Shown piece after piece: positions 4,963 to 61,543 of a DNA stretch of 64,000 nt (positions within the stretch are counted from its first letter, which is position 1; every line of letters begins with the position of its first letter). Source of the DNA: an uncultured Bacteroidales bacterium (lineage in GTDB: Bacteria > Bacteroidota > Bacteroidia > Bacteroidales > Paludibacteraceae). The stretch is taken from contig ONBO01000009.1 of NCBI GenBank assembly GCA_900316125.1, positions 1-64,000 on the forward strand, in the 5' to 3' direction. The notes below the pieces were generated by a model. That model worked only from the letters and a program-made list of their open reading frames with translations. It was not told where the DNA came from and ran no database searches. Position numbers and translations under genes: made by a program.

Positions 4963-5011
4963 TCGTCATCCCGAACTACTTCCGTCATCCTGAACGTAGT
5001 GAAGGATCTCA
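4963..5011. repeat. CGTCA-type palindromic repeat, degenerate copy
   Basis: Two head-to-tail CGTCATCC... units, the second reading on to GTGAAGGATCTCA, lie just after the mdh stop. The same motifs recur at about ten places in the window, often as inverted pairs ending CGTCA...TGACG. This copy lacks the inverted half. Confidence 0.6.
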
Positions 5012-13624: not shown

Positions 13625-13635
13625 AAACATTTCTT

Positions 13636-13670
13636 GGTGAATCGGTTAATCGGTAAACCGGTGAACCGAG
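13636..13670. repeat. GGTGAATC-type octanucleotide tandem repeat
   Basis: Four consecutive 8-nt units (GGTGAATC, GGTTAATC, GGTAAACC, GGTGAACC) follow the third amylase stop. Related arrays lie at 18151-18239 and 57440-57479. Confidence 0.75.
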
Positions 13671-22276: not shown

Positions 22277-22671
22277 TTTACGCCGATGTCAAAGAGCTGC
22301 TGCCCCAGCAGCCACCCTACATATTTGTGGATTGTATTGTGGATATATCGCCCAGCGATGCCACCACTCTGATGCAGGTGCGGGCTGACTCTCCGCTTGT
22401 GAGAGACGGCAAACTGCAGGAGGCAGGGATTTTGGAGAATATAGCGCAGACATGCGCCGTACATATAGGCTACTACTCTGACGATATAAAGATAGGCGTG
22501 GTGGGGGCTGTGCCTTCACTGGAGATTATGAGGCTGCCGCGAGTCGATGAGATTCTGGAGACCACCGTGACGGTTACTGCGGAGGTCTTTAACATGAGGG
22601 CGGTGGATGTTCAGGTCTGCTGCACCGGAACGCCTATCGCACGAGGCTCAATGAAGATTTCACTTACATGA
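22273..22671 (+). CDS. Hotdog dehydratase subunit (ApeP/FabZ-like), no catalytic His motif
   Basis: 132 residues with a single hotdog fold. The start LPQQPPYIFVD corresponds to LPHRxPFLFVD of FabZ-like dehydratases. The central helix GILENIAQTCAVH aligns with FabZ EAMAQ, placing Glu55 at the catalytic acid position. The FabZ HFPxxPxxPG motif is absent; 14 residues before Glu55 there is Pro, not His. Another hotdog gene downstream (26805) has the complementary pattern. Expected role: dehydration of 3-hydroxyacyl-ACP during polyene extension, probably as a heterodimer. Start and stop overlap both neighbours (ATGA), indicating translational coupling. Confidence 0.82.
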   Translation: MIYADVKELLPQQPPYIFVDCIVDISPSDATTLMQVRADSPLVRDGKLQEAGILENIAQTCAVHIGYYSDDIKIGVVGAVPSLEIMRLPRVDEILETTVTVTAEVFNMRAVDVQVCCTGTPIARGSMKISLT

Positions 22672-24323
22672 GAGAGATTGTAAAAATAGCTGATAACATT
22701 GTCTCACCGCTCGGCATGGGCACTGAGGCGAACTACGGCGCTGTGAAGGCTGGCGGGAGCGCGCTCAAGGTGTACCCGGAGATGTTCGGCATGGCAGGGC
22801 CTTTCTGTGCCGCTGTGTTTGAGCCTCTCACTATTGAGAGCGGCGTGGAGGGTGATTTCAGCCGTTTTGAGAAGCTTGCCATACTTGCTGTGCAGGGCGC
22901 GGTGAGAGGCTCAGACACTGACACCGCAAGTGGCGGCACGGTGTTTGTGCTCTCCACCACCAAGGGAGACTTGGAGACGCCGCTGGCCGTGTCCGCCAGG
23001 AAGATAGCTGCCTACTTTGGCAACAGTAACACGCCACTTGTGGTGTCAAACGCCTGCATCTCAGGCGTAGCGGCACAGATTGCTGCAATGCGCGCGCTAA
23101 GGAGCGGACGCTACAGCACCGCCGTGGTGGTGGGGGCCGACGAACTCTCACGCTTCACGCTCTCAGGCTTCCAGTGCCTGAAGGCGCTATCGGCAGAGCC
23201 GTGCCACCCATACAGTGCAGTGCGCAATGGGCTCAATCTTGGCGAGGCCGGAGCCTGCATAGTGTATAAAGCGGTTGATAAAGCCGCAGATGGAGACTGG
23301 GTTATAGAGAACGGCGTAATACGCAATGACGCCAACCACATATCAGGCCCCTCACGCACAGGCGAGGGGAGCTACAACGCCCTACGGGCGGTGCTCAGCG
23401 GCATCAGTCCTGAGGAGATTGCATTTATAAACGCACACGGCACCTCCACAAACTATAACGATGAGATGGAGGCCATTGCCATATCACGTACACCGCTTGC
23501 ATCGGCGCCTGTAAACACCCTGAAAGGGTGCTACGGCCACACACTCGGAGCCGCAGGCATACTTGAAACCATACTCTCAATGGCGGCTGTGGATGACGGC
23601 ACAGTGCTTGGCACGCACGGCTTTGAGAGCCTTGGAGTGTCAAAGCCAATCAGTGTAAGTGTAGACAATTCCGCTACACATAAGAGAGCATTTGTAAAAC
23701 TGCTGTCAGGCTTTGGAGGCGTTAACGCAGCCATGGTGATGAGGAAACGCGCGGCAGATGACCTCCCCTACTCCACTCCGCAGGCCGTATGCAATAAAGA
23801 GTTTACAGAGAGCGCCCCAGTGGAGCTGAGCCTAGAGAATTTCACTCTCAAAGGCTTCAACCCTAACACATTAGGCGCACCCTACCCTAAATATTTCAAG
23901 ATGGACAACCTGTGCCGCCTTGGCTACGTGGCGTCAGAGATACTGCTAAAGGATAGCACAAATAGGTTCACGCCAAGAGAAGACACGGCTGTGATACTCT
24001 TTAACGCCAACTCCTCATCAGACAATGACCGCAAGTACCTTGCCACCATCACGCCAGAGGAGTTCTACCCCAGCCCGTCACTGTTTGTCTACACCTTGCC
24101 GAACATAGTGACAGGCGAGATAGCCATCCGCAACAAGTTCATGGGTGAGACGTCTATGTACATTCTTGAGAAACAAGATATTACGGAGATGCAGGCAATA
24201 GTGTCAGAGGCGTTTCAAGACCCTGTGACAAAGAGAGTTATCTGGGGCTGGGTGGATTTTAAGAGCGAAGATGAGTTTTATACACAGTTGACATTTGACG
24301 TCATCCTGAGTGGAATGAAATGA
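22668..24323 (+). CDS. Ketosynthase fused to a second ketosynthase-like half domain
   Basis: 551 residues, about 150 longer than a normal KAS II. Residues 1 to about 365 form a complete condensing enzyme with Cys130 (SNACISG), His257 (NAHGTSTNYND) and His291 (GCYGHTLGAAG). The remaining 185 residues begin near YPKYFKMDNLCRLGYVASEI and contain SPSLFVYTLPNIVTGEIAIRNK, resembling the short ketosynthase-N-like proteins that stand as separate genes in flexirubin/aryl-polyene loci; no Cys-His-His set is visible there. I infer a ketosynthase covalently joined to a chain-length or structural partner. The last eight residues and the stop lie in a CGTCA-type repeat. Confidence 0.85.
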   Translation: MREIVKIADNIVSPLGMGTEANYGAVKAGGSALKVYPEMFGMAGPFCAAVFEPLTIESGVEGDFSRFEKLAILAVQGAVRGSDTDTASGGTVFVLSTTKGDLETPLAVSARKIAAYFGNSNTPLVVSNACISGVAAQIAAMRALRSGRYSTAVVVGADELSRFTLSGFQCLKALSAEPCHPYSAVRNGLNLGEAGACIVYKAVDKAADGDWVIENGVIRNDANHISGPSRTGEGSYNALRAVLSGISPEEIAFINAHGTSTNYNDEMEAIAISRTPLASAPVNTLKGCYGHTLGAAGILETILSMAAVDDGTVLGTHGFESLGVSKPISVSVDNSATHKRAFVKLLSGFGGVNAAMVMRKRAADDLPYSTPQAVCNKEFTESAPVELSLENFTLKGFNPNTLGAPYPKYFKMDNLCRLGYVASEILLKDSTNRFTPREDTAVILFNANSSSDNDRKYLATITPEEFYPSPSLFVYTLPNIVTGEIAIRNKFMGETSMYILEKQDITEMQAIVSEAFQDPVTKRVIWGWVDFKSEDEFYTQLTFDVILSGMK

Positions 24324-24381
24324 AACGAAGGATCTCATAAAAGTTACGAGATGCTTCGCTACGCTCAGCATAACGAGGACG
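24299..24381. repeat. CGTCA/TGACG-type palindromic repeat
   Basis: Inverted halves: CGTCATCCTGAG ... GAAGGATCTCA and GAGATGCTTCG ... CGCTCAGCATAACGAGGACG. It supplies the 3' end and stop of the ketosynthase gene and separates it from the ACP gene, the largest gap within the overlapping cluster. Confidence 0.7.
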
Positions 24382-24653: not shown

Positions 24654-25871
24654 TTGAGCAAGGTCTACATAACAGGTGCAGGCGTAGTTTCAGCCATAGG
24701 CTGCGGCAAAGAAGAGACGCTAAAGTCACTGCTTGACGGCAAATCAGGCATAGGGCGCGTGCGCTATCTCAAAACCGAGCATACAGAGCTTCCAGTGGGA
24801 GAGGTGAAGATGAGCAACGAGGAGCTCTGCAAAGCACTGGAACTCAACCCAGAAGAGACCCACTCACGCACAAAACTGCTTGGCATAATAGCTCTAAAAG
24901 AGGCGCTGGAAGAGGCGCACATCTCCCGTCATGCTGAGAGCAGCGAAGCATCTCGCATTCATTGTGAGATCCTTCACTCCGTTCAGGATGACGGAATTAC
25001 CTTTATTTCTGGAACCACCGTAGGCGGCATGGATATCACAGAGCGGAGTTTTATGCAGAGCGGCTACAGCAAAGAGCACCTGTGCGGAGCCACCACAAAT
25101 GCAATAGCAGACTATTTTGGCATATTTGGCCGCACAATAACACCGTCAACCGCCTGCTCGTCAGCACTTAACGCCATAATACTTGGATGCAGCATGATAA
25201 AGGCAGGGATGGCAGACATGGTGGTGGCAGGAGGAACCGAAGCCCTCACAATGTTCCACCTAAACGGCTTTAACTCACTGATGATACTGGACAAAGAGCC
25301 GTGCCGTCCGTTTGACGCCACAAGAGCAGGACTGAATTTAGGAGAGGGAGCCGCATACTTGGTGCTTGAGAGTGCTGAGTCCGTGAAGAGAAGAGGCGTA
25401 AAGCCAATAGGAGCAGTCACAGGTACAGCCAACCGATGTGACGCCTTCCATCAGACCGCAACATCGCCGGAGGGAGAAGGAGCCACACAATCAATGCTTG
25501 CCGCCCTGAAAGAGGCAGGCCTGAGACCAGAAGAGATAGACTATATAAACGCACACGGCACAGCCACACCCAATAATGACCTAACAGAGATAGCGGCGTT
25601 CAGGAGAGTCTTTGGAGAGCAGATACCGCCATTCTCATCAACCAAGGGCCTTACGGGGCACACAACCAGCGCGTCGGGGAGCATAGAGACCGTGATATGC
25701 TTGCTGGCCATGCAAAACGGCTTCATCCCAGCAAGCCACAACTGCCTCACCCCCATGGACCCCGCCGCCGTACCAGTGATGCAAACAGTAAAAAACACCC
25801 ACCTCCACCACGTGATGTGCAATTCATTTGGGTTTGGCGGGAACGACTCCACGATAATAGTTGAGAATTGA
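24654..25871 (+). CDS. Beta-ketoacyl-ACP synthase with in-frame repeat insertion
   Basis: 405 residues starting at a TTG (24654), two bases after the ACP stop; the N-terminus SKVYITGAGVVSAIG is exactly the family start, so TTG is well supported. Cys168 (TACSSALN), His301 (NAHGTATPNND) and His336 (LTGHTTSASG) complete the condensing site. Residues 92-114 are encoded by a CGTCA/TGACG palindromic element (24927-24993). In related enzymes this place is a short loop between helix ALEEA and the strand before SGTTVGG, so the element was accepted in a surface loop without breaking the frame. Role: extension or initiation of the polyene chain. The stop overlaps the next start. Confidence 0.9.
   Translation: MSKVYITGAGVVSAIGCGKEETLKSLLDGKSGIGRVRYLKTEHTELPVGEVKMSNEELCKALELNPEETHSRTKLLGIIALKEALEEAHISRHAESSEASRIHCEILHSVQDDGITFISGTTVGGMDITERSFMQSGYSKEHLCGATTNAIADYFGIFGRTITPSTACSSALNAIILGCSMIKAGMADMVVAGGTEALTMFHLNGFNSLMILDKEPCRPFDATRAGLNLGEGAAYLVLESAESVKRRGVKPIGAVTGTANRCDAFHQTATSPEGEGATQSMLAALKEAGLRPEEIDYINAHGTATPNNDLTEIAAFRRVFGEQIPPFSSTKGLTGHTTSASGSIETVICLLAMQNGFIPASHNCLTPMDPAAVPVMQTVKNTHLHHVMCNSFGFGGNDSTIIVEN
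24927..24993. repeat. CGTCA/TGACG palindromic element inside a ketosynthase gene
   Basis: CGTCATGCTGAG ... GAAGCATCTCG, then GTGAGATCCTTC ... TTCAGGATGACG: a complete inverted-repeat copy of 67 nt, read in frame as residues 92-114 (HAESSEAS ... SVQDDG). Confidence 0.8.
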
Positions 25872-34861: not shown

Positions 34862-34906
34862 CCTCCCCCCCCACCACACTCCGCAGAGAATATAGGTGAG
34901 GGGGAG
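34862..34906. repeat. CCCCCTCA...TGAGGGGG palindromic repeat, copy 1
   Basis: Inverted ends of C-rich and G-rich type enclose a conserved core ACACTCCGCAGAG ... TATAGG. The same element occurs at 35559 and 36121. Confidence 0.8.
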
Positions 34907-34917
34907 TATTTATATCT

Positions 34918-34947
34918 CGTCATCCTTCGGCTAAAGCCTCAGGATTT
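34918..34947. repeat. Short CGTCA-family palindrome
   Basis: CGTCATCCTTCGGCTAAAGC then CTCAGGAT: a compact hairpin with arms around GGCTAAAGCC. Confidence 0.6.
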
Positions 34948-34953
34948 CATGCA

Positions 34954-35220
34954 TTATTTGGAATAGTGATATCTCATAGAGAAGACGTAAACATACACAC
35001 AACCATCACTAATGGAGTATACCATTCTGTGCTCATCATTAATTCGTCTACTCCATTTCCCATTTGTACCCTTTAGCAATTCCGGTTTCCCCATCCCAGT
35101 GAACGGGTGCAACAGAATATCATTCAAAAGTTCCGTAATACGCCTCATAATACGTTTGTTGCCCGTTTTAAGCCAATAATCACGGTCATCCCTCGCTTGT
35201 TTCAACAATACTATTTCCAT
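34954..35220 (-). CDS. Txe/YoeB-family toxin
   Basis: 88 residues, full length for the family. Recognised by the YoeB/Txe pattern: a charged N-terminal helix, LLNDILLHPFTGMGKPELLKG, then WSRRINDEHRMVYSI and a final VYVFSMRYHYSK with the C-terminal His-Tyr. Members are ribosome-dependent mRNA endonucleases. Its start overlaps the antitoxin end by 10 nt, the standard antitoxin-first order. The pair lies between two copies of the CCCCCTCA palindrome. Confidence 0.92.
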   Translation of the reverse strand: MEIVLLKQARDDRDYWLKTGNKRIMRRITELLNDILLHPFTGMGKPELLKGTNGKWSRRINDEHRMVYSISDGCVYVYVFSMRYHYSK

Positions 35221-35450
35221 AGATTATCAAGGCTTATAGGCTCAAATTTACCCTCCGCAATCTCCTTGTCACCATCATTTAGAATCTTTACCATAGCAGG
35301 AGAAGACATAATATAGTCTGTCTCATCAACCATACGCTTCTTGGCTGTGATCCTCTTAATGGCTTTAAGAGCTTTTCTCATTAAGTTCTCATCCTCCGCA
35401 ATAACGCTCAACTCACGGTACATTTCAGCATTTAGTTGTAGTGCAGTCAT
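35211..35450 (-). CDS. Antitoxin of the YoeB-type pair
   Basis: 79 residues from the ATG at 35450 (MTALQLNAEMYREL), the start that fits Bacteroidota antitoxins of this type; an ATG at 35462 would leave only about 8 nt of leader. It is helical and basic in the middle (MRKALKAIKRITAKKRM) with an acidic C-terminal tail (NDGDKEIAEGKFEPI) that should wrap the toxin. A near-perfect promoter precedes it. Confidence 0.85.
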   Translation of the reverse strand: MTALQLNAEMYRELSVIAEDENLMRKALKAIKRITAKKRMVDETDYIMSSPAMVKILNDGDKEIAEGKFEPISLDNLWK

Positions 35451-35477
35451 AATACAGTTCATTTAGATGATTCTTTT

Positions 35478-35510
35478 GCAAAAATAGATAAAGCCTTGCA
35501 TATCTCCAAA
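35478..35510 (-). promoter_or_regulatory. Consensus promoter of the YoeB-type TA pair
   Basis: On the minus strand TTTG (35510-35507), exactly 20 nt, then TATTTTTGC (35486-35478). Confidence 0.7.
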
Positions 35511-35558
35511 TTTATTTTCATTCCACCCCGATGCCACCACACATAAACACAAACACAA

Positions 35559-35600
35559 CTCCCCCTCATCCATACTCCGCAGAGAGTATAGGTGAGGGGG
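35559..35600. repeat. CCCCCTCA...TGAGGGGG palindromic repeat, copy 2
   Basis: CTCCCCCTCATCCATACTCC ... GTATAGGTGAGGGGG, with an extended run of G after it. It lies between the TA promoter and the kinase-like gene. Confidence 0.8.
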
Positions 35601-35639
35601 GGGGGATGGATTAGTTCACGTATCGTGAGACTCTTTCTT

Positions 35640-35670
35640 TTTGTGAAATCAAAAAAAAGCACTAATTTTG
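35640..35670 (+). promoter_or_regulatory. Promoter of the kinase-like small gene
   Basis: TTTG (35640-35643), a 19-nt spacer and TAATTTTG (35663-35670), 28 nt before the GTG start. Confidence 0.55.
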
Positions 35671-35697
35671 TAGCATTAAGATAAAAACCACACAACG

Positions 35698-36111
35698 GTG
35701 CATATATATGACATACCTAAACCAGTATCACAAGGAGAATTCGGAAGCCTGCATACGGCAAATTCAAGAATGGAGAAAATCACCGATGTTCTCAGACGAA
35801 AAACAACTTGTAGCATACATGATGAGAAACTACAAGCTTGCACTGAAGCTGACAAAGGACTACTCTGGAAAGAGCAACGAGTAGCCGAACAAAGATCCGT
35901 TTTCCCAATTGTAAAACAACAGTTAATCGACAACTTTCCCGCCACTGCAGATTTAATTGAAGCCCATTTGCAGAATCTGGGGTTCAAAAAAACAATCAAT
36001 AATCACTGGTTTAATGAAACATTTGAAATTTGGGACGTAGTTCCCAAAAACGCAATGACTGACATTAATGGCACTATCTACGTCATTGATGCTGAAATTC
36101 GTAAACTATAA
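35698..36111 (+). CDS. Polyvalent-protein kinase-like small protein
   Basis: 137 residues, starting at a GTG (35698) placed well after a promoter; no ATG gives the same N-terminus. The end WDVVPKNAMTDINGTIYVIDAEIR resembles the D-x-x-x-x-N ... DG-x-x-x-x-ID core of kinase-like domains found in phage and conjugative-element polyvalent proteins. The first half (HTANSRMEKITDVLRRK) precedes a helical region. It is short for a kinase and may be a cut-down remnant of a larger mobile-element protein. It lies between two CCCCCTCA palindromes. Family assignment is tentative. Confidence 0.5.
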   Translation: MHIYDIPKPVSQGEFGSLHTANSRMEKITDVLRRKTTCSIHDEKLQACTEADKGLLWKEQRVAEQRSVFPIVKQQLIDNFPATADLIEAHLQNLGFKKTINNHWFNETFEIWDVVPKNAMTDINGTIYVIDAEIRKL

Positions 36112-36120
36112 CACTAACAT

Positions 36121-36161
36121 CCCCCTCATCCACACTCCGCAGAGCATAGGTGAGGGGGGAG
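36121..36161. repeat. CCCCCTCA...TGAGGGGG palindromic repeat, copy 3
   Basis: CCCCCTCATCCACACTCCGC ... GCATAGGTGAGGGGG, starting 10 nt after the kinase-like gene stop and followed by a CGTCA-type repeat. Confidence 0.8.
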
Positions 36162-36170
36162 TATTTATAA

Positions 36171-36212
36171 CGTCATGCTGAGGGGCGTAGCCCCGAAGCA
36201 TCTGTTCTGACG
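36171..36212. repeat. CGTCA-family palindrome
   Basis: CGTCATGCTGAGGGGC and GCCCCGAAGCATC ... TGACG: a hairpin with outer CGTCA and final TGACG, 10 nt from the surface-operon end. Confidence 0.65.
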
Positions 36213-49182: not shown

Positions 49183-49499
49183 AATAAAAATACGGCCTCA
49201 AAGTTTATGACTATAAAGGTCCTTCCACAAACCTACGTAACGATAAACGATGAAGCCGTACAAGAGTACGGCATTCATTTTTTTACATCGTTACGTTGAA
49301 CGTTATAAGAGGTGGAAGGTTCTTATAGTCTTGATAAAAAACAAATGCAATAAAAGCAGGCTTTCTCTGGCACTCCAGCATACACCTGCTGTATTTTCCG
49401 CAAATATACAAACTTTTTCTATATGGTTGAATAACAAAAGCGTAGCCGTAATCTCCACACTAGAGATTACGGCTAGTTTTGTTCGTAAGTTAATAATAT
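49183..49499. other. Gene-free region with long nested inverted repeat
   Basis: No coding sequence supported. It contains the nested inverted repeat at 49209-49330, A/T-rich sequence, and an inverted pair CCGTAATCTC/GAGATTACGG near 49448 and 49465. Confidence 0.65.
49209..49330. repeat. 122-nt nested inverted repeat
   Basis: Three nested arms. Outer 49209-49228 with 49312-49330 (GACTATAA...CCTTCCAC, imperfect). Middle ACGTAACGAT (49235-49244) with its exact complement (49287-49296). Inner GCCGTAC/GTACGGC (49255-49272). The whole could fold as one long hairpin in RNA or as a cruciform. It lies upstream of the HTH gene. Confidence 0.7.
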
Positions 49500-49531
49500 G
49501 ATCCTTCGGGGTTGCACCCCTCAGGATGACG
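49500..49531. repeat. CGTCA-family palindrome
   Basis: GATCCTTCGGGGTTGCACCC then CTCAGGATGACG: a hairpin with arms GGGGT/ACCCC, 8 nt from the end of the alpha-2-macroglobulin gene; it may serve as its terminator. Confidence 0.65.
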
Positions 49532-49539
49532 TGCTAGTA

Positions 49540-52500
49540 TTATTGCACAACCTTGCAGGTTCCGGCGGCGGTGCGGGCGGATATCTGCGAGTTGTACATG
49601 GCCTCACACTTGATTGACGGCAGTGTGTAGGTGCCTATGTATGACGCTGTGAGCTTGATGGTCACAGTGGTCTGCTTGCCAGAAGGCAGGTAGTCAATAT
49701 AGGTGAGCACACGGTCATCACGCACATCCTGGTAAGATATAGAGCCAGAGTATGCGTCCTGCTCCTCAGAGGCGAACTTGGTGTTAAGGATTTCCCAGCC
49801 TGACGGAACAATCTGGGTGAGAGCCAGGTTGGTGACATCGAGGGCTGTGTTATTCTTAACCGTTACAGTGGCAATGAAGTTTGTGCCTTGAGCCAGTTTG
49901 GTAACATCTACAGGGCGCATATCAGCGTCAGTGTAGCTTACAGCCACGCCTATGCCGTTTGACATGGCCTGAGTGTCATCACCCTTTACAGTACCCTTGT
50001 TAATGAAGTGTACAAAGAGCTGCTGCTCGCCGTTGTTCTTTATAACTATCTCGCCAAACTTGTCTGCGTCGTATGCAAGCGCCTGGATGTAGCCCACAGT
50101 GGTGTTGAACTTCTCTGTAGAGCCGCCGTAGCTAATGCTGCCCTTGGCAGGCTCAGGCTTGCCGTACTTCTTCTGGTACTTGGCTATTGAAGCCAGCGAT
50201 GTGGAGATATCCTGTGTACTGTACCAACGGTCTGACGCAAGGTTACTTGCTATCTGGTTGTAGATGGCGGTAGCCTCAGCCTGCTTGCCCAGTACGCAGA
50301 GAACCTGCAGACGCAGGGCGTTGTCACGTATGTCAGAGCCAAAGGTTGGGTTGGCGCCAGAGTAGTCACTCTTGAGCTCATCTGTGGCAGATATGAACTT
50401 CTCACACATATCCTTTCTACCCGCCGATGCGTAAGCGCCTGCCACAAGCCACTTGGAGAGCGATGTGTTAGCCTCCTCCTTGAGGCGGTTAAGGCTGCCA
50501 AGGTCTGAGTTTCCGCTGAGGCCGAGCACATAGAGGCGGTAGGCCTGAGTGTTAATCTCATTTATCTTGGTCCACTGAGAAGCGTTGTCAGAGAGTTTCC
50601 AGCCCTTGGCGGAGTTCTTCAGATACTTGAAGATATTCTGCTTGAGGCTGTACGGAATGTTGTAGCCTGCCTTCTCAGCCTCAGCTATGAAGTGGCCGGC
50701 ATAGATTGTACCCCATACATTGGTGTAGCTTGAGCCTGGCCAGTAAGAGAGGCTTCCGTCAAATATCTGGTAAGAGGAGAGTTTGCCAAGAACGTATGTA
50801 ACGTACTCAGCGCACTCCTTCTTCTGCTCATCAGAAAGAGATGTGATATCACCAAGGAACACCTGCGGGAATGCCTTGGATACAATCTGCTCCACGCATC
50901 CGTGAGGATAACCCAGCAGATACTCTAAACGAGATGAGAGGTTGATAGGCTTAACGCCTGACACCTCTACACGGAGAGCGTTGGTGCCGCTAAGACCAAA
51001 GGCGTCAATTGTGCCCTTCCACTCCTTGCCGGCAGGGATGGTTATATCCTGGTATTTGGTTATCTCATCAGCCACTGAACGAACCTCAAGTTCTGTCTTA
51101 TAGACTGACTCGGAGTTGCCAGACTTGGCTGTGATGGTCACTGTGCCCGTGCCTGTGGCGTTGCCTGCAAGCAGAGTGAAGGTGGCCGGCATATCGCCCG
51201 CCTTAGAGAAGTTGAGAGTGGTCTCACTGCTACCCTGCACGCTGAACTTATTAGAGCAAGATATTGTAACCTTTACGCTTCCCACGTTATCCTTGGTGGC
51301 AAAGATTGTGGCTGGCACTGTAATCTGCTCGCCCTGCCCTACTATACGTGGCAGTGTGCCAAGCACCATCACAGGCTGGCGTACAAGGATGCTCTTCTCT
51401 GCGCTACCGTAGGCGTTGCCGTTACCAGCCACCACCATGGTGCGCACCTTGCCGTTATAGTTAGGCATATAGAACTTGTGGGTCTCACTGCCGCCCTTCT
51501 TCAGGTAGAACGGACCTGCGAACTTAACCACAGGGGTGAAACGGTTTATAAGAGCCTTGGCTCCGCTACCCTCAGATTCCTCATCACCACCGATGCTGAA
51601 CATCTGCTCTATCTTGCCGCCGTAAGCGCCAATAACCAGGTTATAGAGGTCCCAAGTGCGAACACCGAGAGCCTCGCGGGCGTTGAAGCTGTCCCATGGG
51701 TTAGGGGTCTTGAAATGTGTAAGGTCAAGCAGACCCTCGTCCACAATGGCTATGGTATAGGCCATCTCCTTGCCGTCCTGCTCCTTAACCTTTACTGTGA
51801 ACTCCTCATTTGGAAGTATCTCATCCTTGGCTGTGATTACAGGGTTCAGGTGGCTGTCCGGGTCATTTACGGTAACACCAGCCACGCCGTAGAGGCGGAT
51901 AGGCATATCGTTGGCTGTCTCAGCGTAAGGCTGAACAAGGCTGATGTGGATATATGCGTTAGGACGCATCACTGATGTTACTGGCAACTCAATGGCTGTG
52001 GTTGTACCGGTGCAGTTGTAGGTCTGAGCGCTAAGCACACGGCTTGAGTTCTCTACTGTTACAAGTGCCTTTGAACCAGATACAGAAGGTATGGTAATCT
52101 TAATCTTCTCACCTACGGTGTATGTCTCCTTGTCTGGCTTGAAGCTTAGCATTGTGGCTGCATCGCCGCCGCCATACTGGGTTGGGTTACCTGGATAGTC
52201 AAAGTATGCAAGCAGGGCTGCTGAGTGGCCGGAATCCACGTCACGGGCATAGACGAGGTATGCACCCCAGTCCGCCTTCTTGCAGGTATAGTCGTATGTA
52301 GCTGTACCTGAGCCGCTGGTCACAACGGTCTCATTAACCACTGGCTTGTTATATGAGCTGGAGGCGTAGTCTGCCAGATATGAATCATCTGAACTCCACC
52401 ACCAGTACCAGTCTACCTTGTAAATTCTAATGTTTATGCGCTCACCGCCTACAGGGTTGCCGTTTGGATCAACAGTAGCAAAGCTGAACTGAGCCTTTTG

Positions 52501-55050
52501 GTCTGTATCAAGGGCGTCACGGCCGTTTTGCGGGCTCTTGATACCTACGTAGCTCTTGTATGGTGAGTATTTCTTACGGGTCACGTCTATGCTGAACTGG
52601 CCTGAAGGCTCGTAAACCTTAGTGGTTATGGTGGCGTTAAGCATACCAGGAGCGCTGCTGCCGCCGTCAAGAGTAAAGTTAAGGTTGGCATCGCCGTTTT
52701 CATTGGTAATGCCTGTATAGAGCTTGCTCTCCTCACTCTGGAAGCCGCCGTTCATATTGGTGAACACATAGCCTTTGTATGCGCTGAATGATGTGGATGT
52801 GTTTGTGAATGTGGCCTGCATATCATACCTGAGGTTGCGGGCCTGTGCGCCGTTAAGCCACTCTGTGTGGAGCTTGCCGGTTATTGGCTTGCCCTTCTGC
52901 AGCACCTTGTCACCAAAGTCAGGCTGAACTTTCAGGCGGTTCGGCATCACTGTCTCTATGCGCAGGAACTTGGTGAATGTGGCACCACCCACGGTGATGT
53001 CAGCAGTGTACATTCCTGTAGGAGCGTCAGCAGCCACTGGGATGTTGAAGGCGTAGAGTCCGAGTGTGCCCTTTGACTGCACACGGCGAGCCACCTTCTG
53101 ACCTAGAGGGTTGGTGAGCTCAAATGTTACTGGGTGCTCCTTAGGCAGAGCCTCTGAGCGGTCACCCAGCATGAAACCAATGTGCAGGGTGTCACCTGGA
53201 CGCCATACACCGCGGTCTCCGTATATGAATCCGCCAAGGCCTGACTGCAGGTGCTTGCCTGATGTGTCAAAGCTTGACATTGAGAGGCTGTTGCCGTCAT
53301 CTATTCTCAGATAAGATGTATCGCCGTCTTTAACTGCCACAAGGTAGTATGGACGGCCGTTTGTATATGAGAGGCAGGCGTAGCCTTCACTGTCTGTAGT
53401 ACCCTCTGCTGTGAGGTAGTGCTGGTAGTTGTAAACCTTAACGTTTACTCCTCCCTCCACCTTGGCGCTGTTCAGGTTGCTTGTCCAGATGTTTATCTTG
53501 CCGTCTGCACCGCACTTGGCTACCACGCCTATGTTGGTGGCCATTACATTCTTGGAAGCCTTGAGGTCATCATAGTATGCTGTCTTGCAAGGGTCATCAT
53601 TATCCCACCAGCTGTAGCCGTCACCGTTACTGAAGTAGTAGTAGTAACCGCTGCCCTCAAGTGAGCGTTTCTCCTCTGCAAACTTCTGTGCAAAGTAGGC
53701 CTTTACATCCTCCTTTGACGCTGTGAGGCCCTCACTGCATGGATAGAGGCTCAGCTTGGAGTAGCCACTAAGCTCTATGTGGTAGAGGCTGCCTGGGTTG
53801 GCGTTGAAAAGGTTGTTCAGGTTGATTGAGAATATGTGAGGCTCTGTGAGGTCTATAGTAGGATCCTCATCAAGGAATATCACCTCCTGGTTTACAAGGC
53901 GTCCTACACGGCGCATCTCTGAGTCTTCATCGATGTTTGATGCCTGCAGGAACTGGGCCATGTTACGCTGTGGAACTTCAACCACGCGCACCACTACGCC
54001 ACGCATGTAGGCGCTCTTGAACTGCACCGTGAGGTTTGATGAGAGCGGAAGTATTGCGCCCTGCGATACAAAGCCTATGTATGGTTTGGAATCACCGCCC
54101 AGTGTGCGCTGGAAGGCTGAGTTCTCTGTGAGGGTGAGCCCTTTTGAGCTCTTTATACCCTTGTTTACAAAGATGTTAACCTGCCCGCTCAATTTCTCAT
54201 CATAGTAGAGTTTGAGGCAGTTCTTCTCTATCTGGACACGCTCATTTGTGTTACCGTCTATGTAGGCAAGGCCCTTGATGTCCTGCTCCATATCCAGATT
54301 CTTGGTGAAGTATATGTAGACGCAGCGCTCTGAGCCGCCCTTTACATTTACGTCATACACGCCAAAGCGGGTCTTATCAGGAATCATACATGTACCCTCT
54401 GAAGGATAGTCTCCGCTATTCTTGAGGCTGAACTTGAGCTGACGGTCTGAGTTGCCTGCCTCAATGCCGCTGAGAAGCGCCGTGTGGATGCGGCCGGTGG
54501 CATCGTGGCTCCACTGGGCGTTAACCCTCTCAGAGAATGACACAAGTGACTCTGCGTCTGAGGCGTTCTCACTGTCAGCCGTTACAAGGGTGAATGGAAC
54601 GTCATATTTGGAATCATCATCAGAATTTATACCAAGTGCGCCAAAACTGCCGTGGCAGAGCAGCGGAAGCGTGCGTACAGTGAACTCAAAGGTTGACAGC
54701 TTGGAGTCAACACCCTCAATGATGTTATCCATGTCAAGCTTTACGGTGTACTCAGTGTCACGCTTGAAACTCTCCTTTGGCTGAATGGTCACAATGTAGT
54801 TGTCTGTAACTGCATAGTTGACATCGGCGGAAGGACTCAGCTTAATGTTCTTTGAAAGGAACTCCTGAGTCTGCTTCTCTGCCGGCAACTCCTCTGTGAA
54901 TGAGATTGACACGGCTGCGTAACGCGATATCACTCCTGATGTATATGCCTGTATGTTAGGGTGATACTTGGGAGAGTCACCGCTACTACACGATGTCAGC
55001 ATAAACACCGCTGCTAAAATAAATAGCGCAAAATGTCTGATTCTGTCCAT
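49540..55050 (-). CDS. Alpha-2-macroglobulin family lipoprotein
   Basis: 1836 residues, typical of large bacterial alpha-2-macroglobulins. A lipoprotein signal ends LTSCSS (Cys near residue 21). N-terminal Ig-like and MG domains, the bait region, then the thioester motif YPHGCVEQ (Cys1385, Gln1388) within an alpha-alpha toroid of helices, and a C-terminal receptor-like beta domain. Such proteins trap proteases in the periplasm or on the surface and protect the envelope. In many bacteria the gene is next to penicillin-binding protein 1C, as here, where the two are divergent. The intact Cys-x-x-Gln supports an active thioester. Confidence 0.93.
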   Translation of the reverse strand: MDRIRHFALFILAAVFMLTSCSSGDSPKYHPNIQAYTSGVISRYAAVSISFTEELPAEKQTQEFLSKNIKLSPSADVNYAVTDNYIVTIQPKESFKRDTEYTVKLDMDNIIEGVDSKLSTFEFTVRTLPLLCHGSFGALGINSDDDSKYDVPFTLVTADSENASDAESLVSFSERVNAQWSHDATGRIHTALLSGIEAGNSDRQLKFSLKNSGDYPSEGTCMIPDKTRFGVYDVNVKGGSERCVYIYFTKNLDMEQDIKGLAYIDGNTNERVQIEKNCLKLYYDEKLSGQVNIFVNKGIKSSKGLTLTENSAFQRTLGGDSKPYIGFVSQGAILPLSSNLTVQFKSAYMRGVVVRVVEVPQRNMAQFLQASNIDEDSEMRRVGRLVNQEVIFLDEDPTIDLTEPHIFSINLNNLFNANPGSLYHIELSGYSKLSLYPCSEGLTASKEDVKAYFAQKFAEEKRSLEGSGYYYYFSNGDGYSWWDNDDPCKTAYYDDLKASKNVMATNIGVVAKCGADGKINIWTSNLNSAKVEGGVNVKVYNYQHYLTAEGTTDSEGYACLSYTNGRPYYLVAVKDGDTSYLRIDDGNSLSMSSFDTSGKHLQSGLGGFIYGDRGVWRPGDTLHIGFMLGDRSEALPKEHPVTFELTNPLGQKVARRVQSKGTLGLYAFNIPVAADAPTGMYTADITVGGATFTKFLRIETVMPNRLKVQPDFGDKVLQKGKPITGKLHTEWLNGAQARNLRYDMQATFTNTSTSFSAYKGYVFTNMNGGFQSEESKLYTGITNENGDANLNFTLDGGSSAPGMLNATITTKVYEPSGQFSIDVTRKKYSPYKSYVGIKSPQNGRDALDTDQKAQFSFATVDPNGNPVGGERINIRIYKVDWYWWWSSDDSYLADYASSSYNKPVVNETVVTSGSGTATYDYTCKKADWGAYLVYARDVDSGHSAALLAYFDYPGNPTQYGGGDAATMLSFKPDKETYTVGEKIKITIPSVSGSKALVTVENSSRVLSAQTYNCTGTTTAIELPVTSVMRPNAYIHISLVQPYAETANDMPIRLYGVAGVTVNDPDSHLNPVITAKDEILPNEEFTVKVKEQDGKEMAYTIAIVDEGLLDLTHFKTPNPWDSFNAREALGVRTWDLYNLVIGAYGGKIEQMFSIGGDEESEGSGAKALINRFTPVVKFAGPFYLKKGGSETHKFYMPNYNGKVRTMVVAGNGNAYGSAEKSILVRQPVMVLGTLPRIVGQGEQITVPATIFATKDNVGSVKVTISCSNKFSVQGSSETTLNFSKAGDMPATFTLLAGNATGTGTVTITAKSGNSESVYKTELEVRSVADEITKYQDITIPAGKEWKGTIDAFGLSGTNALRVEVSGVKPINLSSRLEYLLGYPHGCVEQIVSKAFPQVFLGDITSLSDEQKKECAEYVTYVLGKLSSYQIFDGSLSYWPGSSYTNVWGTIYAGHFIAEAEKAGYNIPYSLKQNIFKYLKNSAKGWKLSDNASQWTKINEINTQAYRLYVLGLSGNSDLGSLNRLKEEANTSLSKWLVAGAYASAGRKDMCEKFISATDELKSDYSGANPTFGSDIRDNALRLQVLCVLGKQAEATAIYNQIASNLASDRWYSTQDISTSLASIAKYQKKYGKPEPAKGSISYGGSTEKFNTTVGYIQALAYDADKFGEIVIKNNGEQQLFVHFINKGTVKGDDTQAMSNGIGVAVSYTDADMRPVDVTKLAQGTNFIATVTVKNNTALDVTNLALTQIVPSGWEILNTKFASEEQDAYSGSISYQDVRDDRVLTYIDYLPSGKQTTVTIKLTASYIGTYTLPSIKCEAMYNSQISARTAAGTCKVVQ

Positions 55051-55109: not shown

Positions 55110-57452
55110 TTGAAAAGAAGGTTTAAAATAGTGAAATTATTGCTCTCTGTACTAATTATTTTAACAGTATGGGTGATAATTATGGCCATAACCACTCCGC
55201 ACGGGGTGTTCCGCTCTGTGTACAGCACCCTTCTCTACTCTTCTAACGGCACTCTGATGAACGCTCACATAGCCTCTGACGGGCAGTGGCGCTTCCCGCC
55301 CTGTGACACTGTGCCTGAGAAGTTCCGCAAGGCTATTGTGAACTATGAGGACCGCTGGTTCTACTGGCACCCTGGGGTGAACCCTGTGTCAATGGTGAAG
55401 GCGGCTGTGCTGAACTTTAAGAGGGGGCGGATTGTGAGCGGAGGCAGCACGCTCACCATGCAGGTGAGCCGTATCTCATCTGAGAGCCGCGAGCGCACCT
55501 ACTGGCGTAAGTTTGTGGAGCTTAACCGCGCCCTTTACATTGAGCTGCGATATTCAAAAGATGAGATACTGGCCATGTACGCCTCCCACGCCCCGTTCGG
55601 CGGCAATGTGGTGGGCATAGAGGCTGCAAGCTGGCGGTACTTCTCCTGCCCCGCCTCCCACCTCACATGGGCGCAGGCGGCTATGCTGGCCGTGCTGCCA
55701 AACTCTCCGTCACTGGTGCACATATCCCGCAACAGGGAGCTGTTGCTCAAAAAACGCAACGCCCTGCTCGCCACACTGCATGAGCGCGGCGTAATATCTG
55801 ACGATGACTACTCACTGGCTGTGGAGGAGCCTATTCCTGCCGCACCTGAGAACCTTCCCCAGGCCGCTCCGCATCTGGCCTCCACCCTGCTCAAGACGCA
55901 TCGTGGAGAAGCCATCCACACCCATATAGACCTGCAACTGCAGAACGCCCTGCAAAGCATGGCTGACCAGTACGCCCGTGAGTACACACTGCGCAACCAG
56001 CTGCATAACATTGCCATACTGGTGCAGGAGGTTGGGAGTGGGAACATAATAGCCTACGTGGGCAATGCCTCATTCAAGGCCGACGAGCGTTTCTGCAACA
56101 GCGTGGATATCATAACATCGCCGCGTAGCACGGGCAGCATACTCAAGCCGGTGCTCTACGCCGCCATGCTCTCAGACGGCATGATACTGCCACACACCCT
56201 TATCCCAGACGTACCGCTCTACCTCAAGGGCTTCAATCCGCAGAACTACAACAAGGGCTACAGCGGAGTGGTTCCTGCCGACGAGGCCATTATCCGCTCC
56301 CTGAACGTACCGCTTGTACGCATGCTGCGTGACTACGGCATAGACCGTTTCCTCAAGCTGCTCCGCTCCCTCGGCATCACCACCATGAACCGCGATGCTG
56401 ACCACTACGGCGCCTCCCTCATCCTCGGTGGCGCGGAAGCCACGCTCCAGGAGATTTGTGGGATGTATGCACTTCTTGCCCGTCATGCTGAGCGGAGCGA
56501 AGCATCTCATAATCATCATGAGATTCTTCGGCTAAAGCCTCAGAATGACGGGGACTGTCAATTGTCAACTGTCAATTGTCAACTAAACCAAAGTTCACTT
56601 TGGTTTATGTTCGAGGCAATGAGCAGGTTAAACCGCCCTGAGGAGGAGGCAGACTGGCAGCAGTTTGAATCCATGAAAAAGATAGCCTGGAAGACCGGAA
56701 CAAGCTTCGGCGGCAAAGACGCGTGGGCCATAGGCGTGAACCCGCAGTACGTGGTGGGTGTATGGGTAGGCAACGCCACCGGCGAGGGCCGCTCAGGCAT
56801 GACAGGCGTGGGCTACGCCGCCCCAGTGATGCTACGAGCATTCTCACATCTACGCACATCATCATGGTTTGAACCCCCGTATGACGACATGGCGGAAGAA
56901 GCAGTATGCCGCGCATCGGGTCATAGAGCGTCAGAATACTGCACAGAGGTGGACACAGTGCCCATTCCGCACAGCGGCGTCAGGAGCGACATCTGCCCAT
57001 ACCACAAGTTAGTACACCTGAACAAAGAACGCACCTACAGAGTGAACAGTTCATGCTACAGCCTCTCAGAGATGATAAACGAGCCTTGGTTTGTGCTGCC
57101 GCCTGTGCAGGAGTACTACTATAAGCTGAGCCACATAAACTACCGTCAGCTTCCCCCCATGATGCCAGGCTGCGATGGTGCAGACATACGTCCGCTTGAC
57201 ATTATCTACCCCAACCACGGGGCCATACTCTATATGCCTGTTGATTTTGAGGGAAAGAAGCAGAGCATAGTTTGCGAGGCCACCCATCATAACCCCGATG
57301 CCGTCATCTACTGGCATCTTGACAACGAGTACCTCGGCTCCACCCAGTACATGCACAGCATGGCTATCCAGCCCGCTCCCGGCCTCCACACACTCACGAT
57401 AGTGGATGATGCGGGGAATAGGAAGTCCATACAATTGACGGTGAATCGGTGA
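55110..57452 (+). CDS. pbpC: Penicillin-binding protein 1C with in-frame repeat insertion
   Basis: 780 residues. The start is uncertain: TTG at 55110 (MKRRFKIVKLLL) or GTG at 55131; no ATG fits. One N-terminal membrane helix. The GT51 glycosyltransferase has Glu80 in YEDRWFYWHPG and GGSTLTMQ. The transpeptidase has Ser343 in STGSILKP, SLNVP as the SxN motif and KTGTSFGG. A BiPBP-type C-terminal domain closes it. It polymerises and may crosslink peptidoglycan. Residues 458 to about 492 are encoded by a CGTCA/TGACG palindrome followed by a heptamer array (HAERSEAS ..., then CQLSTVNCQLN) inserted between MYALLA and LWFMFEAM, outside the catalytic motifs. The last four residues lie in an octamer repeat. 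Confidence 0.92.
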   Translation: MKRRFKIVKLLLSVLIILTVWVIIMAITTPHGVFRSVYSTLLYSSNGTLMNAHIASDGQWRFPPCDTVPEKFRKAIVNYEDRWFYWHPGVNPVSMVKAAVLNFKRGRIVSGGSTLTMQVSRISSESRERTYWRKFVELNRALYIELRYSKDEILAMYASHAPFGGNVVGIEAASWRYFSCPASHLTWAQAAMLAVLPNSPSLVHISRNRELLLKKRNALLATLHERGVISDDDYSLAVEEPIPAAPENLPQAAPHLASTLLKTHRGEAIHTHIDLQLQNALQSMADQYAREYTLRNQLHNIAILVQEVGSGNIIAYVGNASFKADERFCNSVDIITSPRSTGSILKPVLYAAMLSDGMILPHTLIPDVPLYLKGFNPQNYNKGYSGVVPADEAIIRSLNVPLVRMLRDYGIDRFLKLLRSLGITTMNRDADHYGASLILGGAEATLQEICGMYALLARHAERSEASHNHHEILRLKPQNDGDCQLSTVNCQLNQSSLWFMFEAMSRLNRPEEEADWQQFESMKKIAWKTGTSFGGKDAWAIGVNPQYVVGVWVGNATGEGRSGMTGVGYAAPVMLRAFSHLRTSSWFEPPYDDMAEEAVCRASGHRASEYCTEVDTVPIPHSGVRSDICPYHKLVHLNKERTYRVNSSCYSLSEMINEPWFVLPPVQEYYYKLSHINYRQLPPMMPGCDGADIRPLDIIYPNHGAILYMPVDFEGKKQSIVCEATHHNPDAVIYWHLDNEYLGSTQYMHSMAIQPAPGLHTLTIVDDAGNRKSIQLTVNR
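56481..56550. repeat. CGTCA/TGACG palindromic element inside pbpC
   Basis: CGTCATGCTGAGCGGAGCG ... GAAGCATCTCA then ATGAGATTCTTC ... CTCAGAATGACG, a complete inverted copy of 70 nt read in frame. Confidence 0.82.
56554..56584. repeat. Heptamer tandem array inside pbpC
   Basis: ACTG followed by TCAATTG, TCAACTG, TCAATTG, TCAACT: four near-perfect 7-nt units directly after the palindromic element, in frame. Confidence 0.8.
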
Positions 57453-57479
57453 ACTGGTGAATCGGTGAACCGATTAACC
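57440..57479. repeat. Octamer array at the pbpC/rpoN junction
   Basis: GGTGAATC, GGTGAACT, GGTGAATC, GGTGAACC, GATTAACC. It carries the pbpC stop on one strand and the rpoN stop on the other. Confidence 0.8.
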
Positions 57480-59776: not shown

Positions 59777-59790
59777 GAGTTGAGGATTGA
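59770..59790. repeat. Heptamer-type repeat after plsC
   Basis: CAGCTGAGAGTTGAGGATTGA, reverse orientation of the TCAACTC/TCAATC units. It holds the plsC stop and the apparent TTG start of the next frame. Confidence 0.5.
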
Positions 59791-61543
59791 CGTCACTCTG
59801 AACGAAGTGAAGAGTCTCATAAAGTTTTTGAGAGACTTCATTAAGCAGTGCTTCACTCTGCATGACGTACGTATATTGTTTCTTCTCCTACTAATTCTCA
59901 ACTTTATTCACACTCCGTGTTCATCAACACGTCAGATCTCAACTCTCAACTCCTACGCAGAGAACCCCTACGTAACCACAGTCTCCCTCCTGCAGGCGGG
60001 TGAGACGGAGCAGGCCACTCTGATGCTGGAGAAGCAGGTTAAGAAGAGTAAGAAAGAGAGCCAGTGGTACAAGATGCTCGACGACACCTACAAGAGCTAT
60101 GACCTTGTGGATAAGCGTATCACACTGCTGGAGAAGGCGTTAGACGTAAAAGGCGTGGAAGAGCCCGAGACTCTGAGGTACCGCCTTGCCTTGGCGCTGT
60201 TTGACGCGGAACGCTTTGATGAGAGCATCGCGCAGCTGCAGAAGTTAAAACAGACCTCTCTTGTTAAACGCACAATAGCAAAATGCCAGGAGGCAAAACT
60301 GCTTAAGGAGGATGCCCTTGACATTGAAATCACTCCTATGAGTGACAGCATCAACACCCCCTATGACAATATCTGGCCTTTTATTGACAACGATAAAAAA
60401 CATTTCTACACAACTGTGGTCATGGGCAAAAGCAGTGTCATGGCTAAATCTCTTGACATTCAGGAGGATATTTTCTATAGTGTTCTATCTGCAGACGGCA
60501 GGTGGCTGCCAGTGACGCCTATTCAGGGAGAGCTGCGCAGCAGTGAGAACGAGGGTGCGTGCTGCATATCGGCCGACGGCAGGTACCTCTTCTTTGCGGC
60601 TTGTAACCGCCGAGGCGGCGGGGGCGGCTGTGAACTGTACTACGCCACAAACAAGAACGGCAAGTGGAGCCGCCCTGTGCTCTGCCCCGTCCCGCTCAAC
60701 TCCCTCCGCTGGCAGAGCACCCCAAGCCTCAGCGCAGATGGCAAAACCCTCTATTACAGTGCTATAGGCAATAATCCAGACGGATCACCTAAGGGAGATA
60801 AAGATATCTATCGCTGCAGCGTAATCTATAACAAGGACGGCTCTCTCAGCTTCACCAAAGTGGAGGTATTAGGGCCGGAAATTAACACTCCAAATGATGA
60901 GATTTCACCATTCATTAGCCCCTACGGAGATATACTCTACTTCTCTTCTGACGGTCACGGCGGCATGGGCGGACTTGACGTATGCTATAGCCGCCTTGAC
61001 TCCACTGGAATTTGGGGCAAGGCAGAGAACATAGGATACCCAATTAACACCCACCGTGATGAGTTTGGTTTTGTGGTTGACGCCACTGGTGACATGGGCT
61101 ATATGTCATGTAACGGCCTCTCAGGCGGCGAGTTCTGGCAGAACAAACGCATCGTGAGCATTACGCTGCCTTCAGAACATCGGGCTGGTTCAGGCTTTGA
61201 GCAGAAAGGGGAGGCATTCACACTTGAGAACATCTATTTTGACATAGATAAGAGCACGCTGCGTCCTGAATCATTCCCTTATCTTGACTCCTTTACCCAG
61301 TTCCTCACGGTTCACCCCAAATACAGAGTCCACATAACCGGCCACACAGACAGCACTGGCACAGAGGAGCATAACCTCCAGCTCTCTAAGGAGCGTGCCG
61401 CAAGCGTTGCCTCCTACCTGACTGAGCATGGCATCTCCTCTGACCGCATCACCACCGAAGGTCTCGGAGCCTCACAGCCAGTCTCACACACAGACAACTC
61501 CCTGAACCGCAGAATTGAGATCCATCTATTAATGGAAAATTAA
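59780..61543 (+). CDS. OmpA-family protein with TPR and PD40 domains (PorE-like)
   Basis: 587 residues from a TTG at 59780; a TTG at 59876 would give 555 residues and a better signal (LFLLLLILNF ... PCSS). The first 30 residues of the long form are translated from repeats, so the inner start is favoured. A TPR-like helical part (about 60-170) is followed by a six-bladed PD40/WD40-type propeller (ISADGRYLFFAA, LSADGKTLYYSA, ISPYGDILYFSS) and an OmpA peptidoglycan-binding domain (YFDIDKSTLRPES, GHTDSTGTEEHN, LNRRIEIHL). TPR-PD40-OmpA order matches PorE of the type IX secretion system; I see no separate regulatory beta domain, so a general OmpA role is also possible. Confidence 0.82.
   Translation: MRIDVTLNEVKSLIKFLRDFIKQCFTLHDVRILFLLLLILNFIHTPCSSTRQISTLNSYAENPYVTTVSLLQAGETEQATLMLEKQVKKSKKESQWYKMLDDTYKSYDLVDKRITLLEKALDVKGVEEPETLRYRLALALFDAERFDESIAQLQKLKQTSLVKRTIAKCQEAKLLKEDALDIEITPMSDSINTPYDNIWPFIDNDKKHFYTTVVMGKSSVMAKSLDIQEDIFYSVLSADGRWLPVTPIQGELRSSENEGACCISADGRYLFFAACNRRGGGGGCELYYATNKNGKWSRPVLCPVPLNSLRWQSTPSLSADGKTLYYSAIGNNPDGSPKGDKDIYRCSVIYNKDGSLSFTKVEVLGPEINTPNDEISPFISPYGDILYFSSDGHGGMGGLDVCYSRLDSTGIWGKAENIGYPINTHRDEFGFVVDATGDMGYMSCNGLSGGEFWQNKRIVSITLPSEHRAGSGFEQKGEAFTLENIYFDIDKSTLRPESFPYLDSFTQFLTVHPKYRVHITGHTDSTGTEEHNLQLSKERAASVASYLTEHGISSDRITTEGLGASQPVSHTDNSLNRRIEIHLLMEN
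59791..59867. repeat. CGTCA/TGACG palindromic element at a gene start
   Basis: CGTCACTCTGAACGAAGTG ... AGAGTCTCAT then GAGACTTCATT ... CTCTGCATGACG. It is translated as the apparent N-terminus of the PorE-like protein and separates plsC from its likely true start. Confidence 0.7.
59937..59952. repeat. Heptamer-type repeat in the PorE-like gene
   Basis: TCTCAACTCTCAACTC, two TCAACTC units in frame, encoding ISTLNS just after the signal region. Confidence 0.5.

Follow-up and report, generated by a model that had tools for sequence, protein, structure and literature searches.

The ketosynthase gene at 24654–25871 of the window (the whole stretch of 64,000 nucleotides under analysis, from an uncultured Bacteroidales bacterium) carries an in-frame copy of a short palindromic repeat. 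Our data support the view that this repeat is dispersed and mostly non-coding, and that it is also found inside genes as a tolerated peptide. The best explanation, to which we assign a probability of about 80%, is that it is a CGTC-tagged REP-like element that spread through one clade, turns over slowly and is on rare occasions tolerated as an insertion in a protein loop or linker.

Two complete copies of the repeat lie in frame in conserved genes

The ketosynthase element (24927–24993, plus strand, 67 nt) reads CGTCATGCTGAGAGCAGCGAAGCATCTCGCATTCATTGTGAGATCCTTCACTCCGTTCAGGATGACG and has the form CGTCATGCTGAG...CAGGATGACG. It is an inverted dimer of two 26-nt hairpin units, one on the plus strand (24928–24953) and one on the minus strand (24967–24992), separated by a 13-nt spacer. 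This dimeric make-up was missed in an earlier note on the same DNA. The first codon of the element is exactly codon 92 of the host open reading frame (ORF, plus strand), and the element supplies residues 92–114 of the product (RHAESSEASRIHCEILHSVQDDG). As claimed in that note, the ketosynthase is otherwise intact: the ORF is uninterrupted and encodes a beta-ketoacyl synthase of 405 amino acids with matches to Pfam KS domains (E values of 1e-28 and 2.5e-32), and the motifs TACSSA, AHGT and GHT, which are conserved across relatives, are preserved. A structure model places the insert between helix 72–87 and strand 115–120, in a loop of low confidence (pLDDT < 50 at residues 93–105 and 107–112).

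The second in-frame dimer (56481–56550, plus strand) is found in pbpC, the gene for penicillin-binding protein 1C (55110–57452, plus strand; 780 amino acids; E value 7e-199), where it reads RHAERSEASHNHHEILRLKPQND from residue 458. Both halves are complete (56482–56507 on the plus strand and 56521–56549 on the minus strand); the right half, with its longer apical stem GGCTTTAGCC, for this reason escapes a fixed 26-nt search pattern. Of the three forward frames, the pbpC element leaves only one open throughout. The peptides are those previously reported, HAESSEAS in the ketosynthase and HAERSEAS in PbpC.

The repeat unit is conserved as a hairpin

Each unit consists of a CGTC tag, a stem (ATNCT/AGNAT), two G.A mismatches in tandem, a two-pair apical stem and a tip. 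The stem starts with an A-T pair followed by a T-A pair, and comprises 7 Watson-Crick pairs and 2 G.A mismatches. Loops are 3 nt long in units of 26 nt and 4 nt long in units of 27 nt, and the short tail reads CTC. In nearly all units recovered by our search patterns, which require GTCA, the tag lies outside the covarying stem.

Among 42 distinct units, 97.6% of the cells were paired, compared with 82.5% in shuffles, and five of the seven pairs were altered on both sides; the invariance of the G.A mismatches is partly built in, as the search patterns fixed these letters. Of 53 dimers, 52 have their tags pointing outward. Both units self-pair at the variable stem position in 43 dimers, and 31 of these differ in letter there between their two units. 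Hence, it is the single unit, and not the long palindrome, that covaries. Covariation was used in place of folding energy because the energy of a single 28-nt unit, calculated with standard DNA parameters, was no better than that of shuffles (z values of 0.45 and 0.11). Our reading of the latter result is that standard parameters give no credit to the tips and the G.A pairs.

The tip itself follows a pattern. Of 136 distinct 26-nt units, 100 have GNA at the tip; of 17 distinct 27-nt units, 15 have GNNA, which is mostly GTTA and conforms to GNRA in one case only. In units of 27–36 nt, the apical part is swapped for other self-complementary sequences: 41 of the 43 units whose length is not 26 nt retain the outer two apical pairs, against 4.9 expected. 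The 36-nt units show a GNA/GNA internal loop beneath a second two-pair stem, with all four pairs kept in 15 of 16. Longer units add GNA/GNA internal loops, and the rule for the tip, which lies above the tandem G.A mismatches, can be stated as GNA or GNNA closed by two pairs. For a poorly understood class of elements, this is a concrete structure rule that can be tested.

Extraordinary stability has been described for DNA mini-hairpins that have two or more G-C pairs and a GNA or GNNA loop (PMC4686876). The tips fit such DNA mini-hairpins rather than the RNA GNRA rule, and the sequence pattern thus suggests single-stranded DNA as the relevant form. One may speculate further that the form in which the units are maintained is a mini-hairpin of single-stranded DNA and that the dimer with its 13-nt spacing is coding-tolerant by geometry, offering hydrophilic frames in either orientation. 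We hold this extended proposal as tentative; if true, such REPs would be enzyme-less parasites of single-stranded DNA, partly pre-adapted to protein loops.

A different possibility is that the units are kept as RNA hairpins, either terminators or stabilisers of mRNA 3' ends, and that the copies inside genes are accidental. Such a function would suit the location of most copies, which are intergenic and often lie directly past stop codons. However, the GNNA tips (mostly GTTA) of 27-nt units go against the RNA GNRA rule, an Rfam scan of the window gave no match, and presence of the repeat is patchy among related species. We therefore consider a role as RNA unlikely.

Distribution and turnover

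In the gut-type Bacteroidales genome from which the window derives (2.07 Mb), 37 units were detected with the first search pattern and 51 with a pattern that allows a variable apex. The reversed pattern, used as control, yielded 0 matches, and the repeat is thus far beyond chance. In the genus, the repeat is present in 6 of 16 genomes: the five other carriers hold between 14 and 118 units, while ten genomes have none, and the reversed pattern gave zero in all the genus genomes searched. With a stricter pattern, 18 of 148 genomes of the order showed matches. The most likely history is a spread of copies along the lineage leading to one sub-clade of the genus, followed by slow turnover today, with copies persisting mainly between genes.

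Alignment of ketosynthase orthologues showed that the segment is absent from all 24 relatives compared. The earlier note had named sharing of the segment by all orthologues in distant relatives as grounds for refuting its reading, and this was not observed. In the closest relative (G015, with 81% identity), 69 nt are missing in frame, and the first 12 nt of the element, CGTCATGCTGAG, are still in place. Truncated heads are common around other copies, an observation that favours partial loss in G015. Most likely, judging from these sequences, the insertion in the ketosynthase predates the split from the sister species, and G015 would have later lost 69 nt in frame while the first 12 nt stayed.

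The opposite polarity would make the sister state the original one: the 12 nt of G015 would be a chance target, and the element would have been copied by homology into the genome under study only. The loop of G015, with 13 residues, has indeed the same length as that of two outgroups. However, an exact 12-nt match right at the end of the element is not easily put down to chance, and heads truncated in this way are frequent at other places in these genomes. An origin by insertion at a pre-existing chance match seems improbable to us.

At the pbpC site, genomes G011–G014 have a short loop. The corresponding locus of G015 (L084, contig C27) harbors an unrelated palindrome-rich insert that is open in frame. 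At another orthologous site (L058/L226), similar hairpins are found in place of the REP.

Intergenic sites were compared with G015 using a 6,987-nt query of joined flanks that left out the last four sites. Several sites are occupied in both genomes. At one site, located between a stop codon and the ATG that follows, G015 cleanly lacks the element. This single clean empty site gave no sign of an exact target-site duplication, a trait that, along with terminal repeats, would mark a MITE of a known insertion sequence. As the G015 assembly is 83% complete, a site that is missing from it altogether is not counted as evidence. Several other intergenic sites in G015 hold a different short repeat. The proposal of "active mobility" made in the earlier note can therefore be retained in part: clade-limited presence, the clean empty site and the different repeats found in the sister species speak for turnover. 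Current activity finds no support: several of the compared sites are common to the sister species, and matches to Y1 or RAYT transposases are lacking in the six genus carriers. With occupied and empty sites, this genome and G015 make a matched pair for working out the copying route.

Copies inside genes

Copies of the repeat are strongly depleted from genes. Strictly gene-internal copies make up 2 of about 34 sites in the genome under study, compared with about 91% coding sequence; the latter figure is a greedy ORF count on the window, while coding position was judged on stretches around the copies. When 276 non-redundant units from eleven genomes were examined, in-frame internal copies were found in eight genes with Pfam matches. 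Besides the ketosynthase and pbpC genes, these encode WecE-type and DesI-like sugar aminotransferases (both in G011), a RecB-like helicase (G012), an FAD-dependent protein and DsbD (both in G014), and an M56-peptidase/TonB protein (G155). N-terminal copies that appear to be in frame (L064, which is the copy at 59791 in the window, L061 and L108) were excluded as probable start mis-calls, and three short ORFs with internal copies and no Pfam match (L267, L299 and L306) were left uncounted.

Gene-internal copies mostly fall in loops or linkers. Solved homologues of both aminotransferases are devoid of 12 residues at that place of the fold, and the insert carried by the RecB-like protein, like that of DsbD, falls between Pfam domains. 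The data support the idea, put forward in the earlier note, that non-coding palindromes have spread into genes as tolerated peptide. The frame RHxERSExS, used in six of the eight genes, is the most hydrophilic of usually four open frames (GRAVY values of about −1.9 to −2.8). The P value of this bias is 0.004 for that frame and 0.017 for any frame, in a small sample of eight genes that may not be fully independent as two of them are paralogues.

A "selection for frame", also proposed before, is better explained by survivorship. Insertions that do no harm persist; those of any other kind would disrupt the gene, and so the copies still seen inside genes are in frame. What is observed is the bias toward the hydrophilic frame, in six of the eight genes. 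A copy inside a gene may survive, on rare occasions and in a loop or linker, because the dimer reads stop-free in a hydrophilic frame and the resulting peptide is tolerated, presumably as a neutral addition.

Two arrangements can be described separately. The paralogous aminotransferase genes of G011 (L099:1501–1526 and L104:1501–1526, both on contig C20) lie 7.6 kb apart and carry the same unit, in frame and at the same place of the fold; either independent insertion or gene conversion may account for this. In the gene for the FAD-dependent protein of G014 (L297:1458–1527), a tandem array that preserves the reading frame consists of two truncated heads of 21 nt followed by one full unit, and the encoded peptide is RHPELPS RHPELPS RHPERSEGS.

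Search for a dedicated transposase

The earlier note had proposed a search for a REP-associated transposase (RAYT). No RAYT was detected in any genus carrier: Y1_Tnp (PF01797) gave no match in any of the six genomes of the genus that carry the repeat, the genome under study included, and one match in each of two non-carriers. Because the genome under study is 96% complete, a RAYT encoded in it can be mostly refuted as the mover. At the level of the order, Y1_Tnp is found in 13 of 18 carriers and in 88 of 130 non-carriers, with no association (Fisher P = 0.79). Inspection of 12 Y1_Tnp loci from carriers revealed no unit inside the flanks examined (up to 1.5 kb).

These data bear on the possibility that the repeat moves by active transposition of the REPIN/RAYT type, catalysed by a tyrosine transposase of the genome itself. 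Inverted hairpin dimers with a 4-nt tag are indeed typical of REPINs, and Y1_Tnp genes exist in many carriers outside the genus. The results of the searches described above point, however, in the opposite direction, and the tag is CGTC instead of GTAG. We regard this route as quite improbable. Still weaker is the notion that the ketosynthase segment is ancestral coding sequence, palindromic by chance, which has the open frame and nothing further in its favor and is refuted by the 24 relatives that lack the segment and by the occurrence of this DNA in pbpC as well and at dozens of intergenic sites.

As no dedicated transposase was found, spread of the CGTC-tagged element would rely on a trans-acting enzyme, on an enzyme since lost, or on template switching at replication forks. 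During copying, the feature that is recognised, or that forms as single-stranded DNA, is most likely the conserved hairpin with its CGTC tag, AT-first stem, tandem G.A mismatches, short apical stem and GNA/GNNA tip.

Relationship to known elements

CGTC-tagged REPs have been described in Bacteroidetes and Chlorobi, also inside genes (Di Nocera et al. 2013, PMC3733652). Their consensus includes an unpaired CGTC tag, a stem of 8–9 bp that starts A-T, T-A, and a loop of 4–5 nt; the tail is short and unpaired, and contains CCA in most members but not in all. They seem to lack a dedicated transposase (PMC3733652). The element described here shares with them the unpaired tag, the AT-first stem and the short tail, the organization as mostly inverted dimers, often heterodimers, the mainly intergenic location with some copies inside genes, and the absence of a flanked transposase gene. 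Differences are the GNA/GNNA tip over tandem G.A mismatches, the variable apical stems, the tail (CTC versus CCA) and the 3-nt loop of 26-nt units, compared with 4–5 nt in the consensus. The element is thus confirmed to fit the CGTC-tagged REP superfamily and is of a kind already known; however, because loop length and tail differ, it was not assigned to any of the four numbered families.

Rickettsia palindromic elements (RPEs; Ogata et al. 2000, reviewed in PMC2229807) have 105–146 bp and were found in 19 reading frames. A Gmk protein with an in-frame RPE remained active (PMC2229807), and RPE-4 and RPE-6 are CGTC REPs according to PMC3733652. By description, RPEs resemble our element in being palindromes that have become part of the reading frame of conserved genes (eight in this study), but the units described here form elements of 67–70 nt that are mostly intergenic and reside in a Bacteroidales host. 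REPINs and GTAG REPs with RAYT are also dispersed inverted hairpin dimers located between genes; unlike them, our element showed neither a GTAG tag nor a dedicated transposase. What this study adds, within the limited literature searched, are the rule for the tips, the bias in reading frame and the eight genes from Bacteroidales. The insertion of REPs in frame, for which Rickettsia is the best-known case, is thereby extended to Bacteroidales with eight verified genes.

Other repeats in the window

Five elements not listed in the earlier note were detected in the window, all outside gene interiors. A single intergenic unit is located at 4983–5009 (plus strand). A dimer between genes (24299–24375, plus strand) has a left unit of the 36-nt type that ends a ketosynthase-like ORF (22668–24323) upstream of the ketosynthase gene: the final codons (DVILSGMK) and the stop codon of this ORF come from the dimer, and the site is common to G015. 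The unit at 36171–36203 (plus strand), between predicted ORFs, has a long apical stem (GGGGC-GTA-GCCCC). Another single unit, with one mismatch, lies on the minus strand (49499–49531), outside the neighboring long ORF (49543–55050, minus strand). Lastly, a dimer whose second unit is degenerate (59791–59867, plus strand) is found at the 5' end of ORF 59780–61540, probably upstream of the true start.

Repeats of other kinds were also observed. Heptamer-type repeats (TTGACAGTTGACAATTG and similar) are found beside the REP or replacing it at several sites (56551–56600 inside pbpC; L046/L233; L066/L241). Arrays of 8-mers (CGGTGAAC/CGGTGAAT) lie between genes at 13635–13667 and 57439–57479, and a similar array occupies the place of a REP in G015 (L197/L219). 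Finally, a 42-nt repeat (CTCCCCC...ATAGGTGAGGGGG) is present in three copies in 34863–36160, the last of which ends near the unit at 36171.
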